Assembly (NCBI GenBank): GCA_021432605.1
Contig: MU271163.1
Coordinates: forward strand, 62,001 to 126,000
From: Coniochaeta sp. PMI_546
Taxonomy: Eukaryota > Ascomycota > Sordariomycetes > Coniochaetales > Coniochaetaceae
DNA length: 64,000 bases
Direction: 5' to 3'
Shown here piece after piece: positions 32,459 to 64,000 of the stretch (position 1 is its first letter; each line of letters opens with the position of its first letter). A program made the translations under genes and the position numbers. The notes beneath the pieces are model-generated. The model did no database searches and was not told the DNA's origin. It saw nothing but the letters and a program-made list of their open reading frames with translations.

Positions 32459-35400
32459 ATGGGAAGGACTCGAACACCCGTGACTCTTCCTGGGCCACAT
32501 GGCATCATGCCTTCGTCCACCGCAAGCCCTGGTCTGGCACCACTTCACAAGCCTACAGAAGTCGACCGTTCCAGGAGTCAACAAGTCTCCCTGCGATGGG
32601 ACGACGAAACCACCTCTGCTCGCCGATCCGCACGACTGCAGTTCGAGGTGGCCGAGTGCGTCGAAACCAAGACTGTCACGACTACAACCACAACCAAGCG
32701 TTCATATCCACCTCTGTTTGTGAGGGAGCCCCGCTCTCTGCATTGTCTTGATTCCAAGGAGTACCCCTTAGCATCCCGCCCTACCCCTCCGGAGTTGAGC
32801 CGAGTCACGCTCGACATGGCCGATTTCGATGCCGAGCGTTGGACTTTTGACGACGAGCCGTCGACCATGCAGGTATGCATTTTTTGTCTTCTGCCCCAGC
32901 TTCCTTCGCTTCCACTCTCCCACTGTCCGCCACGTCACTATGTTACCGTGTCGACCGTACTCTTGAGAACTAACAAAGCTAACAAAGTGTCAGACCGAGC
33001 ATACTCCCCATACCGACCTCGCACCTGACTCGAATCGCGAACCCGGAGTCGATAGTCCGAAGAGTCCCAGAAGTCCAACTTACGAGTCCACAATTCGACC
33101 TTCTATCCCTCCCGTCGAATCCTATACCCGCCGATCCAAGCGGACGAGCACACGGACGGCCTCACCTACGTACAACGCAAGCACTCGCTCTTCTAGGAGG
33201 CTGAATCGAAATCCGGGTCTCAGTTTACATCATGCGGTCTCCGATAAACTCCGCCGGGCAGCCGCTAGTAAGTCTGATAAATCCAGGAACTTCTCCGCTG
33301 GATATCTCGCGACCCCGGATACGACAGAGGCTGCCATCGGGGGTCTAGATCATTCCCTACGGGCGATGTCACCCGATGTTCCACCCGGAACCAATTCACG
33401 TACCATGCAGACGACCTCAACATATGATGTCGAAAGCCCAGCAGCAAGCGACTCACATACCATTTTCAGCAGCAATGTTGCAACTCCTCCCATCACAGAC
33501 AGCGATCTCGTCCCGTTTGCGGACCCTGAAGACTCGATCCAGCAGCCCGTCCGCCATTTCCCACCAAGACCCACCATCAACACTGTTGCTGCCCAAGATG
33601 CCAGTTTGCCCAGCCCTCGACTGTCGCCGACTTTGGCGGCCGCGCAGAGCCACCCAAGCCCTGACCAAGATGCCGAAATCGACGATGAAGATGCGTCCAT
33701 GTTTTCTCGGCAGCTAATACGCAGGGACCGCCGCGAGCGACGACAGTGGTTCGACGAAAGTCAGACGACGGATGAAGGAGACGGATCGATGCTTACTACA
33801 CTGTCGGATGGAACACCGGCTCAGGACGACACATGGGCGGTTCAGCCGAGCTTTGCCAACACACGTGCGATGCTCGAAAGCTTTGACGCCATGCCAAACG
33901 AGATGAAGTCCTTCATGATGTACCAATTCCTTCGACGGTGTCCGCGGAAGACCCTTCACATGGTGGCAGATGTGGTCAACCCTGCCCTGATGTGCGACTT
34001 TCTCAAAGAATTGCCTCTTGAGCTCAGCCTCCACGTCTTGTCGTACCTGGATCACCGAGACCTTTGTAGAGCTGCCCAGGTTTCAAAGCACTGGCGAAAC
34101 ATTGTTGACAGCAATGAGACTGGGTGGAAGGAGCTGTTCGACCGTGATGGCTTTCGTCTACCCCCCGGTGAGCTCCGGACTGCCATCCAGCAAGGCTGGG
34201 GATGGCAAGACCCTGTTGGTGAAGAAGGGTGCGAGGTAGATCTCAGCCAACAGACAAGACTCACGGCCTCCGATGCCGATCTGGTTCGCCACACGAGACT
34301 TGAGATGCCGGCCTCCAAGCCGCGCAGCACAAAACGCAAGAGGTCTTCTCTGGCCCCTAGCGTGACGTCGGAGCGCGTTAAACGGCGAGCCAGTGCGCAG
34401 GAGCATCCTAAGGACGATATCGGTTCACAATTGGAGCTGCGGCAACACAAGTCAGAAGGGCCCATTTCGGCTGCCAACGAGGCGGCTGTCACCGTCCCAG
34501 ATCCTCATATTGGACTTCCTAGTTTGCGCAAGCTTCATCTCTTCAAGTCATTGTACAGACGTCATTACATGATAAGAAAGAGTTGGACTAGTGGCAAGGT
34601 TAAGCCAAGCCACGTTGCGTTTGCTGCGCATCCTCGTCATGTCATTACTTGCTTACAATTCGACGACGACAAAATCATCACCGGCAGCGATGACACCTTG
34701 ATTCACATCTACGATACAAAGACTGGCAAGCTTCGCAAGAAGCTCGAAGGCCACGAAGGAGGTGTCTGGGCTTTGCAGTACGAGGGCAACATACTGGTTT
34801 CAGGCAGCACGGATCGGTCTGTTCGCGTTTGGGACATCGAAAAGGGGCTTTGCACCCAGGTCTTTTACGGGCACACGTCCACTGTCCGATGCCTTCAAAT
34901 ACTTATGCCGACAGACACCGGCAGGGTTGAGGACGGTAAGCCGGTCATGCTGCCGGCAAAGCCACTGATCATCACAGGTTCACGGGACAGCCAGCTTCGT
35001 GTATGGCGCTTGCCCGAGGCTACCTCGCGCCGCTACATTCAAACTGGACCTCCAGCCAACGATGCTGAATGTCCTTTCTTCATCCGCATTCTGAGCGGTC
35101 ATTCGCATTCCGTGCGAGCCATCTCTGCTCACGGGGACACTCTTGTCTCCGGTAGTTATGACAGCTCTGTTCGTGTGTGGCGCATCAGTACGGGCGAGGC
35201 CCTACACGTCCTTCACGGTCATAGTGCCAAAGTTTACTCTGTGGTCCTTGACCACCAGCGTAATCGTTGTATATCAGGCTCCATGGATTCCTTGGTGAAA
35301 ATCTGGGACCTCGACACAGGAGCTTGTCTCTATACTCTGGAGGGTCATAGTTTGCTGGTCGGGCTGTTGGACTTGCGGGACGATCTACTCGTCTCCGCCG

Positions 35401-35847
35401 CAGCTGATAGTACTTTGCGCATCTGGGACCCTGAGAAGGGTAGATGCAAAAGCACATTAATGGCCCATACGGGTGCTATTACTTGTTTCCAGCATGATGG
35501 GCGGAAGGTCATCTCCGGCAGCGAGAAAACTGTTAAGATGTGGGACATCGAGACTGGAGATTGCATACAGGACCTCCTTACCAACCTTAGCGGGGTCTGG
35601 CAAGTCAAGTTCGATCAGCGGAGATGTGTGGCAGCTGTCCAGCGGGATAATCTCACTTACATAGAGGTATGACCCCGCAGACATCTCGACATTTGCTTGT
35701 CGCATCAGTTTACCTGTTTTACTGACTAACACTTCATAGATTCTTGACTTTGGAGCCATTCGAGATGGCGTGCCACCCGAGGAGTTGGGCAAGCGGAAGC
35801 TCCTGAACGAGAGTGAAGTTCAACGCTTGCTTGCGGAGGATCCATGA
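32459..35847 (+). CDS. cdc4: F-box/WD40 ubiquitin-ligase receptor, Cdc4/Fbw7-type
   Basis: Substrate receptor of an SCF ubiquitin ligase that recognises phosphodegrons and controls cell-cycle regulators. Exons 32459-32872, 32994-35666 and 35740-35847 give 1064 aa. The N-terminal 420 residues are disordered and Ser/Thr/Pro-rich. The fungal Cdc4 dimerisation-type segment MMYQFLRRCPRKTLHMVADV precedes the F-box (LKELPLELSLHVLSYLDHRD, about 475-517). A seven-to-eight-bladed WD40 propeller covers roughly 680-1030, with repeats such as GSTDRSVRVWD, GSYDSSVRVW and GSMDSLVKIWD. A basic bipartite nuclear signal (RSTKRKRSS..RVKRRAS) lies between the F-box and the propeller. A long acidic-basic N-terminal extension is normal for fungi. 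The last exon restores the ending ILDFGAIRDG..LLAEDP. Confidence 0.92.
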
Positions 35848-42561: not shown

Positions 42562-45540
42562 ATGTCTGGTAAGTTTGACAGTTGTTCTGTTGCGTTTGAG
42601 TATCTTGTCCACTTTCCTTTCCTGTCTCATCATGACAGGCCGCAGCCACTTACCACATGCTACGGGCAGCTAACTCGGTGCACTCTTACAGGCGAACCCG
42701 AACCTCGACGGTCGGTGCGTGCGACCAAAGGTCAGCACAAAGCGCTTGACTCCTTCGATCAACCTATCGAACCGCCCAAGAAGCGTGGCAAGAAGGGCAA
42801 GAAAGCGGCCCAGGAGCCCGAAGAAGAGATAATTCGTTGCGTATGTGGTGCAACCGAGCAGGACGAGGATTCAGGGGAGCCTTGGATCGCCTGCGAGCAA
42901 TGCTCCGCGTGGCAGCATAACGTATGCATGGGTATATCTCGTTATTCGGAAGATGTCAAGGACCTCGACTACTGGTGCGAGAAATGCCGCCCTGAGGACC
43001 ACAAGGAGCTTCTCGAGGCCTTGGACCGAGGAGAGAAACTGTGGGAAACGCGACGGAGGGCCTACGAGGAGGAACTGGCCGAGGAGGAAGTGGCGGAGAA
43101 GAAGAAGAAGAAGGGTTCGAAGAAGGCCAAGGGGAAGCGTACCAGTGAGTCCAAGGAAGAGCCCAAGCAATCGCCTGTACCGGAGGCAAAAAAGGAGACC
43201 AAAGCAGCTGTTGCGGGTAAGCGAAAAGCCAGGGATGAATCACAAGAAAAGGAATCAAAGGTATGGGTTCTATCCACCTTGGCTGGGATGGCGGTGCGTT
43301 GCTAACATGTCCTCTAGCCATCACAGAAGCTGCGCAAGGTCTCCGAGACCCAAGCAGTACCGATCCCTGCCTCTGCCCCTGAGGCCCCTGCCGTCCCTGC
43401 CGTCCCTGCCTATCAACCACCAGCGGATATCGCTGCAAGCATCTCCGAACTTCCAGATACAACTCGACAGAATGCCGCCAAAGGCCTATGCAAATCCCTT
43501 ACTCATGCCATCGGTGCTGCAGAGAAAAAAGGATCGTTCGTGCCGACAGATGGAATCTCGATCGCGACGAGAGCAGAGCGATTTGCGCTGGAAATCGAAC
43601 GAGCTGTTCATGATACCCACCCATCCGGTTCATACGCGACCCAGACCAGGACTCTATTCTACAACCTGAAGAGCAACCCAGAGCTAGCACTGCGTTTATT
43701 GAAGGGGACGCTTACTCCGCCTATGCTTGCCGCCATGACAACCGAAGAGCTGGCATCAAAGGAGCTTCAGCGCGAGACGGCAGAGATGAAAGCTCGTGCG
43801 GAAAAGCAGTCCATTCTTCTTCCGGAAGAGCAAGCACCTCGGGTGCGGCGGACTCACAAAGGGGAGGAACTTGTCAATGATGACACTGCTGTCGAAATCG
43901 AAGAGGCACCTCTGCCACAGGTTCGACGATCTACCATAGTTCGGGAGAGCGAGTCTGAGTCTCTCCCGCCGCCTCCAGAGGCCGAGGAGCCTACTGAGCC
44001 TGCCGTTGAGCTCCCAGAGCACATCGAGCAGACTGCTGCTCCACGCAATGCGCTTCATATTGACACCGAGCAGTCGCCGAAGACGGACTTCGATATTAAC
44101 AAAGTCTTCTCCAGCGTGAAATCGCCGACTGCCTCTGCTAATAGGCGCATGTCCACCCTGCCGGCTCCTTCCACGGGTCCTGGTGTAGACCCCGAGGTAG
44201 ACCGCATGCTCCGGGATGACGGCAATGAATCGCCGCCGTATTCTCCCACAGAAGAGAGCGACCCGGATGTTGTCTGGAGAGGGAATCTTCTGATGAACAC
44301 GATAGCCGACTTCCAGGTGGTTGCGAAGCATGTCGGCGGCGCCAAATTGACAGAAACCATTGGCCTCCCTTGGGCTACTTTGTTTCCCAAGCGGCTTACA
44401 GTAGCCGGACGCATCGACCAGCAGAAGGCTGTCGAGTACCTGTGCAGCCTACGGTACAGCTCGCTGACAGATATTGTCGTCACTAGTCTGGAACCTGCCA
44501 CGGACGGGTCCAAGGCAGCATTTCACAAGCTTATCGACTATTTTGTCTCCAAGGCACGGTATGGTGTTGTCGGTGACAAGGGTGTGGGCAACGTACGAGA
44601 CACATACTTGGTCCCTGTTTTGCCTGGCACTGGAGGCCACCCCGAGTTTATGCTAAACCTGGTCGATAATTTCATTCCCGAGATGCGGACAGAGAAGATG
44701 CTGCTGTGTGTTTTTGTATACCGCAATGATCCGGAGTCAGTCCAGGGCCGCCACCCCTCCAACAGCTCGAGCCAGGCTGTGTCCCAATCACCAGTTATAA
44801 ACACTCCGACCGCCGCTCAGGGAGCATTTTCCCAGCGAAACCAGTCCATCTCAGCGCCGCAATTCTCCCCTACATCTCCTCGAGGGTCGCTGCCGAACCA
44901 TCAGAGCCCGAGGAACAGCCAGACACCTGTCCAGCCTCCGCATGTACCACACAACGCGATCCCTGCCCAGCCACAGCAACTTCAGCAGATTAATGCGCAG
45001 GCCCAGCATGAGGCTGCGCAACGTGAAGGGGAAAGAATAGCTCGTGAGGTGCTTGGACCGTTGATCAGCAGCCCGACGCTCGCCTTTATCATGCCGCACG
45101 CCCACCGCATGCTGCCTAAGGAGTGGCATCTAATCCGAGAGGTGTATGAGCGCGACCTGCTGTCCCGCGAAGATCTCAACCGGCTCAGTAACTTGTTAGC
45201 TGAGGGAAGTCGGCCACGCGATGAGCCCAACTCCGCTGGGCCGTCGCAGCCGCCAAAACCAGCGCAGCCGGGAAGAGGTCAACTGCACCAGACGCAAGCC
45301 CACCCGCAACAAGCCCACCCGCAAGGACAGACGCAGCCACAGGTGCAGCCACAGCCTCAGTATCGTGCTCCGCCGGCGCATCAGACACCCATTCCGCCGC
45401 CAGTCCTGCCGCCGCAGAGAACGACGCCGGTGCCGCCTCCAACTGTCCCGGCAGGGCCACCGAGGCAAACGCCAATCCCTCCCCCTAACATCCCGCACCA
45501 CCCACCGCACACCGCGGCATCATCAGCTCCAACAGCTTAG
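42562..45540 (+). CDS. bye1: Bye1-like transcription elongation regulator (PHD, TFIIS-M, SPOC)
   Basis: Nuclear RNA polymerase II-associated factor of 932 aa. Exons 42562-42568 (7 nt only: ATGTCTG), 42692-43260 and 43318-45540. The PHD finger at 52-101 has all Cys/His ligands (CVCG..CEQCSAWQHNVC..CEKC) and is expected to bind histone H3K4me3. A Lys-rich linker follows. A TFIIS central domain spans about 240-360 (ALEIERAVHDTH..RTLFYNLKSN..LLKGTLTPPMLAAM) and is known in Bye1 to bind the polymerase. A SPOC domain lies at about 508-665 (VVWRGNLLMNTIADFQVVA). The C-terminus is Gln/Pro-rich. The first intron (123 nt) with a CTAAC branch supplies the start; frame and domain order fit Bye1 well. Confidence 0.93.
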
Positions 45541-46626
45541 AAATTGTTCTTTGACATGGCATGAGTTATGAGGCTGTGTTGGAAACACCAGGCATGGTCT
45601 TTCTTTCACTCGCAGATTGGCGTTTGGCGTTTGGTCTGTGGACCTTGGGGTGATCAAGTACGTTCTTTTCTTCCGCGTGCCTCATACCTCGCACGTCCAG
45701 GAGCCCAAGGTGCACCGCCTTCTTAGCCGGCTTCGACCTCTGAGTTGTGGATTTTGATTGCGATCACGAGAGATTTGCGGCGGATATATGGTCTGTCGCG
45801 CTGGTTATAATGATATGGGTAACGCAGTGCGGACTGAGATAACTGTCATCGGTTTCGGGCCACGGGGAAAATGTCGTCGGGGTGACTGTGGAGTTAGGCT
45901 TGCTTTCGATATCATTCTTCATCCATTTTGCTCTTGCATGGTACCTTATCCCTTGGCCTAAGGTACCGGGATATAGCCTCGCCTACGGTGCCGGTTGAGC
46001 TTTTGCGGTTGCGACTGCAGTCAACGTTGCCTTGTTTGTAAATGCTACGAGTTTATCGTGCTTGGTGGAATTATCTGATCAGTTGCCCATCTCTTTGAGG
46101 ACTTAACATTCATGTCCCGACCATTGATGTGGTTGGAGGCAGCACCAATCTTCTTTCTGGAGGAGATACATTGTTGTGAAACATGCAAGAGCCACCAGGA
46201 TGGCCCACCAATGGCATCTACAGTACGAATGCAAGTTTTGGTATATGAACGTACTATGTATAACGTATGCATGGACTTGGCACTGGCGGTCGCTAAATTC
46301 GCGAACTCCAGCTAACCTGGCACTCCACGTAACTTCCATTGCTTTTCTTCTTCCACTGATCCGACCACCCTCCGTGACTTTCAGCTCGAAGATTGCAGCC
46401 TTGTAAGTACAAGCTCATCTGTTCAGCCTCGACAGAGAGCGATCCCTCTTGAGCCATCCCTGCGACGTCACGATTGAGCTGTCACTCCTCTGCTATTTGG
46501 CCACGCCCGTCTCCGACTTCTGCGCCACAGCAGCTAACATAGAACCTAGCACTTCCAGACATTGCTGCCCACAGTCTCCTAAAATCTGCCTCCTCCATCC
46601 ACATCCCAAGATCCAACTTAGCGATA
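45541..46626. other. Intergenic region upstream of a small Cys-rich ORF
   Basis: About 1.1 kb. The right part has TATA-like sequences near 46240-46262, a C/T-rich stretch at 46327-46385, a strong donor GTAAGT at 46403 and a CTAAC with acceptor at 46557-46558. This is what a leader with a leader intron looks like. The left part is the Bye1 3' UTR. Confidence 0.4.
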
Positions 46627-46803
46627 ATGGCTTGCGCATCGTCGCGATCCTCTCTCGTCAACCACAACGGGCCTGGTAGCGCGGCTGTGTCCATCGTCGA
46701 ATCCATCGTCAAGCCGGCCGAAGCAACAGGTGGCAAGACGAAGTGTATCGAATGCGATGGCTATGAGTGCTGCTGCATCCCAATTCCTTGCACAGTCATG
46801 TAG
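46627..46803 (+). CDS. Small Cys-rich protein with C-terminal CaaX-like box
   Basis: A 58-aa ORF with good start context (A at -3, G at +4), preceded by a C/T-rich leader and a plausible leader intron (46403-46558). The N-terminal 39 residues are soluble and mostly neutral. The last 19 residues hold six of the seven cysteines: CIECDGYECCC then IPIPCTVM. CTVM fits the CaaX farnesylation signal, and the Cys triplet just before it could be palmitoylated or bind metal. Two readings are possible: a lipid-modified peptide, such as an a-factor-like pheromone precursor or a small membrane-anchored signalling protein, or a small metal-binding protein. I do not know a family for it. The 3' side faces Med7, 273 bp away and convergent. 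Confidence 0.5.
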   Translation: MACASSRSSLVNHNGPGSAAVSIVESIVKPAEATGGKTKCIECDGYECCCIPIPCTVM

Positions 46804-47076: not shown

Positions 47077-47973
47077 TCAGTGGAAGTCCGAATCTAATGC
47101 CGCCCAGCTAGCCTTCTCTCTTGCGCGCCGCAGCTCCTCGTGAAGTCTGGTGTGGTTCTTTGCCTGGACGCTATTGACCGGCTGCTTGCCGATTTTGGGC
47201 GTGTTTATGCCTCCATCGGGTGGGAGCTCGATGCTTCCCAATCCTTCGAGCACGCGGTTGGCTTTGTCAACAACAGCGCGGATGGCTGCCGTTTCCGCGC
47301 GCTTGGCGTCCAGCTGGTCTTGCATCAATGCGATGAGCTGCTCGCGAGCTTGATGAGGGCGGTATTCGTTGAGAATGTGGTGGAAGTTTAGGAGGAGGGT
47401 GCGCAGGTCTTCAACTTTCTCATAGCCCTGTATGACGAAGACATGGTCAGACATTCGACTTTTCAAGTTCCAAACAGGCAGAATGTATACCTGTTCCGGG
47501 GCGATGCCCATCACCCCCATCAACTCAAGAAAGTTAAGCAGCAACGACTTGGCAAGCCGCTTGAGGACAAATGCACGGTCGACATGTTTGCCATCGAGGT
47601 CGCCTTCGGAAGGGACCAGGCGTTCAATGCCTGCCGCTTCGAGACTCTGGAGTTCATCGTCAAGCTAGAAACTAAAATTAATCCCAAGGTTCGCCTAGGA
47701 GTCGACCAAAGTCAGGAAACATGCCGTGAGTGGCTCTCCAAACAACCGCCACTTGCCGTCGAGGGGCTCCGCCGGTGGTTGAAGGTTGACGAGGTCCTCT
47801 GGTACGCCCGGAACGCGGATGATGGTAGAAACATCAAGGCCCGTTTGGTCTGCATAGCGACTTCTCAGACTCTCCATCCGATCGATCTTGTCCGTTGTGA
47901 AGTCGCGCCAGAACGGAGGAGGATCTGGGAATGTTGACGAGGCGTTCGACGCGATCGGTGGAGGTTCAGCCAT
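47077..47973 (-). CDS. med7: Mediator complex subunit 7
   Basis: Middle-module subunit of Mediator, which links regulators to RNA polymerase II. Preferred exons 47973-47725, 47664-47491 and 47427-47077 give 257 aa. The N-terminus has FPDPPPFWRDFT, then LFGEPLT joined to LDDELQSLEAAGIERL, and the family core LRTLLLNFHHILNEYRPHQARE with a coiled coil behind it. The first intron fits best as a 60-nt GC-AG intron (GCATGT..TTTCTAG); a 42-nt GT-AG alternative would insert six residues. The second intron is 63 nt, in frame and stop-free (GTATAC..CTGACC..ATACAG); reading through it would put 21 foreign residues between GIAPEQ and GYEKVEDLRT, inside a conserved helix. It is divergent from the ZNF830-like gene. 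Confidence 0.9.
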
Positions 47974-62797: not shown

Positions 62798-64000
62798 CTA
62801 CAAGCATTGAGAATAATAATCGTTCTGGAACTTGCACGTCGTCCCCGCAGCGCACGACTTGCATCCGTTCCAATTCTTGCCGGCGCATTGGCCCCATTTG
62901 GCAGACTGGCAGGCTCCGGTCTGTCCTCCGGTCTGTCCGCCCTGTCCGCCTTGCCCGCCCTGGCCGCCCTGGTTTCCTCCTGTTCCTTGGCCTAGGTTGG
63001 TGAAATTGTCAGTCACAAGTAATACATATCTGGACAAACGGGTTCAAGTCTTACCTATATTCGTGAGCAGCGCTGGGACCCCAATCTTGGACGTCTCGTC
63101 GATGGTGCAAACATTGATGCACTTCCCGGACTTGACAAACTGCGGGTCCGTGTTGTTGTAGACCATTTCTATCCACTGGATCTGCAAATAAGCCTGCGAG
63201 TTGATGCTCATATTGCCACTCCAGCTCCCGCCGTCGCTCCAGTTGTTGAACATGATCTGCGACGGGTCCCGCGGAGCCTGGAACGAGATGGCCGACACGA
63301 GCTGCCCGTTGACGTACCACGTGCTCGACCCCGGCGTCCAGTCGAGCCGGTAGTACGCCCAATCGCTCCATCTCCTGCCCGACGGCAGGGACGCGTTCCG
63401 GGTGGCCTGCGGGATGTCGCCTGTGCTGTTCCAGGACGGCTGGTTGGTATACTGCACAAAGTTTGGCGGGTCGACGGTCCGGATCTCGAGATCCGCCTCC
63501 TGCACCAGCGCTAGCGAGTTGTTTGGTCCCGGCCGGTATGTAAACATGGCCGTGACCGCACCTGGCGCTCCCTTTGTGCGCGCAAACATGCGCACCGAGA
63601 CGTATTGATACCCTTGGCTAATGGACTCGAACTCAGCAGCTGTCTGGAAATCCTTCAGTCTGGCGGTCCTCATAGTCAGGTGTGTTTGCGACGAGGCCTG
63701 GTTGTCCGCGTTGCGCTCGATGTAGATGTTGTTCGGCGAGTTGACCATCAGCACGCTGGCGTCGCTGCCCGTGATGTCCGAGTTGTTGAACTTGAATACT
63801 TGGCTGTTGTTCCAGTTCTGGATGCCCCATGTGCTGGTCCAGTTGCTGGATTCAAAGTAATTGCTTGGAGGCGGAGCGTTAGCGTTGCTGTCCGGATCCG
63901 GCTTGACACCTGGTACATTGACATATTGGTTGAGCTGGCGGAAGTCAAAGAACTGGTGATGTGCGAAGTAGTTGGCTGACGTGGCGTTGGTCTTGTAACA
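62798..64000 (-). CDS. Secreted GH16-family glycoside hydrolase with CBM1 domain (partial)
   Basis: 3' part of a secreted wall- or plant-polysaccharide-active enzyme; the start lies beyond 64000. Exon pieces seen: 64000-63055 and 62991-62798, joined by a 63-nt intron (GTAAGA..CTGAC..CAACCTAG). The visible part begins [21 protein letters not shown] and contains the GH16 active-site form E-x-D-x-E in [12 protein letters not shown] at 63485-63499, and the beta-sandwich pieces [19 protein letters not shown] and [15 protein letters not shown] linker of about 30 residues made of GGQ repeats follows, then a fungal CBM1 domain with six cysteines ([20 protein letters not shown] and the usual ending QNDYYSQCL). 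Probable endo-beta-glucanase type; exact substrate unknown. Confidence 0.88.

Follow-up and report, generated by a model that had tools for sequence, protein, structure and literature searches.

A short Coniochaeta open reading frame may encode a lipid-anchored, cysteine-rich microprotein rather than an a-type mating pheromone

The window analysed here, a 64,000-nucleotide stretch of contig MU271163.1 from Coniochaeta sp. PMI_546, carries a short open reading frame (ORF) of 58 codons followed by a TAG stop codon (Table 1). The predicted peptide ends in ECCCIPIPCTVM and contains seven cysteines among its 58 residues, at positions 3, 40, 43, 48, 49, 50 and 55, with an IPIP stretch between the CCC triplet and the cysteine of the CaaX box. 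It has one CxxC motif only, lacks KR, KK and RR, and hence any Kex2 pair, and has four serines and no threonine among residues 1–12. The short cysteine-rich ORF with a CaaX end of the farnesylation type described in the first-pass annotation is therefore present, with CTVM as its last four residues. Elsewhere in the window, an F-box and WD40 repeats occur together in one large protein (33366–35672, + strand), a glycosyl hydrolase family 16 domain is encoded by an ORF at 63044–63748 (− strand), and an Rfam search of the whole window returned 0 matches.

Table 1. Features of the peptide locus (window positions) and of the a-factor-like gene found on another contig of the same genome
Feature	Position	Strand	Basis or remark
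Upstream neighbour: ORFs with PHD-finger and SPOC domains, probably one gene	42562–45540	+	Pfam
Pyrimidine-rich segment that may be a promoter or the first leader exon	46320–46402	+	67% C+T
Putative leader intron	46403–46549 (acceptor alternatively 46558)	+	Donor GTAAGT (46403), branch-like site CTAAC (46534), acceptor AGs with their last base at 46549 and 46558
Coding sequence of the 58-aa peptide, stop included	46627–46803	+	ORF listing; codon score rank 6/306
Codons of CxxCx4CCC (residues 40–50), with GY at 45–46	46744–46776	+	
CaaX box CTVM (residues 55–58), farnesylation type	46789–46800	+	
MED7 (two ORFs), the convergent neighbour downstream	47077–47973	−	Pfam
Apparent a-type pheromone precursor, 22 aa, ending DGYCVVM	contig C4:1876936–1877004 (L010:4936–5004)	−	

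The start context, the pyrimidine-rich leader and the leader intron proposed for this ORF in the first-pass annotation were all recovered as sequence signals, the intron being putative. The ATG at 46627 lies within ATAATGG, which places A at −3 and G at +4, and the C+T content is 62% in the segment between the first acceptor and the start codon (46550–46626). The + strand contains no ATG from 46272 to 46626, and none of the seven ATGs at 46200–46271 is spliced in frame to CTVM, whichever acceptor is used, so the likely start is 46627. A longer protein read through an upstream coding exon was ruled out, with 0 of these 7 ATGs reading into CTVM.

The ORF might have arisen by chance and have no function, or it might be a piece of a non-coding transcript. 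A strict CaaX end was found in only one of the 611 ATG ORFs of 20–120 aa in the window, that of the 58-aa peptide. First-order simulation yielded 0.82 such ORFs per window (60 windows) or 0.94 per window (2,000 windows, 1,874 ORFs), a rate that favours a chance origin, and the CaaX end alone is therefore not significant. Six or more cysteines in the last 24 residues were found in 4 of the 1,874 simulated CaaX ORFs, and in none of the 104 ending in Met, so that the 2,000 simulated windows contained no case resembling the peptide in both respects. Nevertheless, the same simulation rate would produce roughly one CaaX ORF with six cysteines across 33.5 Mb of genome, and the rarity of the combination is thus support rather than proof. 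Codon usage also argues against chance: with a synonymous-codon model trained on 12 other ORFs of the window, the peptide scored 0.136 bit per codon over 56 codons, ranking sixth among 306 ORFs of 40–120 aa, whereas the overlapping antisense ORF of 93 aa scored 0.017. The start context and the leader-intron signals point in the same direction. Pattern searches of viral contigs (44 matching stretches) and of prokaryote genome contigs (595 matches) gave 0 confirmed relatives, a result that would suit a chance ORF, although both collections contain no fungi by design. We consider a chance ORF unlikely, and the 58-aa ORF is probably a real gene.

Protein searches of the same genome with queries of 58 and 24 residues returned only the window locus among the matches listed, which is a lower bound. 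The pattern CTVM followed by TRR was found at seven places in this genome, six with a true stop codon and one ending in TGG. The reversed control pattern gave 11 matches, so CTVM ends are not enriched genome-wide. Only the window peptide has six cysteines in its last 24 residues, and the other six places have one or two. Searches of Pfam, NCBIfam and PDB sequences with the 58-aa peptide gave 0 matches at E values up to 10, NCBIfam being made for prokaryotes and the HMMER filters dropping most weak matches. Neither a metallothionein nor any other catalogued family was matched by profile in Pfam or NCBIfam at this threshold. Searches of the open-access literature yielded no recognised description of the peptide, and six peptide strings taken from it occurred in 0 papers there. 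A single-sequence AlphaFold model was uninformative (mean pLDDT of 49.9). The 24 contigs of the assembly gave 0 matches to 5.8S rRNA, and rDNA may therefore be missing from it.

The a-factor precursors are described as short and ending in CaaX or CPAX (PMC10569646, in the part consulted), and the window peptide shares a short CaaX-ended ORF and a final Met with the Sordariomycete a-factors of the N. crassa mfa-1 and G. zeae ppg2 type. The first-pass annotation accordingly raised the possibility of an a-factor-like pheromone. A search of the genome for YC[TIMAV][IMV]M followed by TRR identified three places, the reversed control giving one, and two of the three were rejected as a-factor genes, their short open frames having no Met upstream. 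The third, the 22-aa precursor on contig C4, gave a score of 38 with the peptide that PMC3068285 prints for C. globosum, a value reached by 0 of 2,000 shuffles. It is flanked by genes for cyanate lyase (PF02560, E 5.9e-30) and EBP2 (PF05890, E 4.1e-60), and the three share one strand. According to the sections of PMC3068285 that deal with this locus, the a-factor genes of N. crassa, M. grisea and G. zeae are located close to cyanate lyase, and those of M. grisea and C. globosum on its downstream side; EBP2 is among the flanking genes, and order and orientation vary between species. The C4 gene thus appears, on sequence grounds, to match an a-factor gene in its sequence, ending and genomic surroundings, and we regard it as a candidate pheromone gene. 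Judged by this gene and its neighbours, the fungus would probably be placed among the Sordariomycetes. STE3 is present in the genome (two exon matches), and a search for the MAT alpha box gave 0 matches, as did its controls.

The window peptide differs from this precursor and from the Sordariomycete a-factors in general. Aligned with the C4 precursor it scored 21, a value reached by 310 of 2,000 shuffles, indicating no resemblance beyond chance. It lies at another locus, between the PHD/SPOC and MED7 genes rather than near cyanate lyase and EBP2, it lacks both the MPS start and the GYC end, and it has extra cysteines. Since an a-factor-like gene sits at the published neighbourhood on C4, the a-factor suggestion for the window peptide was not upheld. 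We rejected the peptide as a candidate in view of the C4 gene ending GYCVVM between cyanate lyase and EBP2, and consider it very unlikely to be the a-factor of this fungus. A membrane-anchored peptide is more likely than a mating pheromone, and we prefer this reading because what seems to be the actual pheromone gene is the one on C4.

Other described precursors share some of these features. HPP1, the h-type precursor of T. reesei, contains three (LI)GC(TS)VM copies together with Kex2 sites, as given in the relevant part of PMC3068285. It resembles the window peptide in its CPAX-type ending with Thr after Cys, but the latter has one CTVM and no dibasic pair, and thus falls outside the h-type definition in that source. 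Verticillium VdPpg2 (66 aa, C-terminal CaaX) is similar in size and ending, as far as it is described in the portion of PMC11077750 considered, but it has five undecapeptide repeats with internal CaaX-like motifs, and no repeats are present in the window peptide.

The closest described counterpart that we identified, a lead by description only, is a putative a-factor from Leotiomycetes. Wilson et al. (2023; PMC10569646, here and below as represented by the parts of the article consulted) screened Leotiomycete proteins no longer than 100 aa for a CaaX or CPAX end and proposed B. cinerea BCIN_13g03330, found in at least 111 species of their set, as a putative a-factor. According to these authors, the a-factors found until then in filamentous ascomycetes all came from the Sordariomycetes. 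Members of the BCIN_13g03330 family are 45–64 aa long, most commonly end in CTVM, have a Ser/Thr-rich start and, in 87 cases, carry GY near the end. The statement of the first-pass annotation that no described family fits the window peptide therefore needs qualification in view of this Leotiomycete peptide, which agrees with it in length (58 aa), in the CTVM end and in GY near the C-terminus (G45-Y46), the comparison being with the published description only. With the Ser/Thr-rich N-terminus of the family can be compared the four Ser, but no Thr, at the start of the window peptide. The consulted parts of PMC10569646 make no mention of a CxxC/CCC cluster in this family. BCIN_13g03350, close to BCIN_13g03330 in numbering, is described as a xyloglucan-specific glucanase (PMC10745266, as partly consulted), and none was identified beside the window peptide among the ORFs scanned.

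The peptide could also be a second prenylated signalling peptide, exported in the manner of a-factor and perceived through Ste3 or a different receptor, perhaps in a context other than mating. The final Met of its CaaX box, its lack of a Kex2 pair and the presence of STE3 in the genome are compatible with this, whereas the occupation of the conserved neighbourhood by an a-factor-like gene and the lack of resemblance to the C4 precursor argue against it. Upstream of the peptide gene, ATTGTT and then TGAAACA occur at 46170–46183, an arrangement that we take to resemble an HMG site beside a pheromone-response element. However, this is one of six copies of TGAAACA within the 64-kb window, and the motif is absent from 3,018 bases around the a-factor candidate and from 3,510 bases around STE3. 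We therefore rejected it as a pheromone-type control site, and its absence from these two genes also speaks against a second signal. The literature on the Leotiomycete candidate bears on both sides: its traits match those of the window peptide, and non-mating roles for the N. crassa a-factor are recounted in the same article, but in three species the candidate was without mating-type-dependent expression, in data in which MAT genes were also low (PMC10569646, in part). Overall, we consider a second exported signal quite unlikely.

We lean towards a small gene for a lipid-anchored, cysteine-rich microprotein that is not an a-type mating pheromone. Our best reading of the sequence is that the peptide would be farnesylated, probably also palmitoylated, and tethered to a membrane; transcription, both lipidations, location and function are all inferred. 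Farnesylation would take place on C55 of CTVM, after which the last three residues would be removed by a protease of the STE24 or RCE1 type and the C-terminal cysteine methylated by ICMT. The CCC triplet at 48–50 may be palmitoylated by a DHHC enzyme, as are upstream cysteines in Ras tails. The lipids would keep the peptide at a membrane, on the side facing the cytosol, and its N-terminal part together with the CxxC pair might serve there as a small adaptor or a thiol/metal site. Ras tails and Ykt6 likewise carry cysteines just upstream of a farnesylation CaaX box, but the window peptide matches no Pfam family and so has neither a GTPase nor a longin domain. The genome encodes proteins of the prenyltransferase fold PF00432 at three places (5 matches), a STE24-type protease (PF16491, 1 match), ICMT (1 match) and DHHC enzymes (9 matches). 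Because PF00432 includes geranylgeranyltransferases and triterpene cyclases as well, a farnesyltransferase was not singled out among these matches. The proposal of the first-pass annotation that the peptide may be farnesylated and palmitoylated is thus consistent with its CaaX box and cysteine cluster and with the enzyme genes present.

Alternatively, the peptide may serve mainly to buffer metals or thiols, like a metallothionein, with the CaaX box being incidental or merely placing it at a membrane. Seven cysteines in 58 residues, including CxxC and CCC, would suit such a role, but the absence of any Pfam family at E values up to 10, the single CxxC and a CaaX box of good farnesylation type make this still less probable than a second exported signal.

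Wilson et al. themselves doubted that their CTVM candidate acts in mating, pointing to several lines of evidence (PMC10569646, as partly consulted). We tentatively propose, with some doubt, that the window peptide and the Leotiomycete "putative a-factor" belong to one unrecognised, widespread family of dually lipidated, cysteine-rich CTVM microproteins, constituting a separate lipid-peptide system in which the Leotiomycete gene would carry the wrong name. Should the two prove homologous, the CTVM family would be separate from a-factor, because the Coniochaeta genome carries an apparent canonical a-factor gene as well. Homology would thus mean that the Leotiomycete candidate is not an a-factor and that the prenylated microproteins of fungi include a second class. 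The occurrence of a CTVM look-alike beside an apparent true a-factor in one genome makes the identity of the Leotiomycete candidate directly testable.
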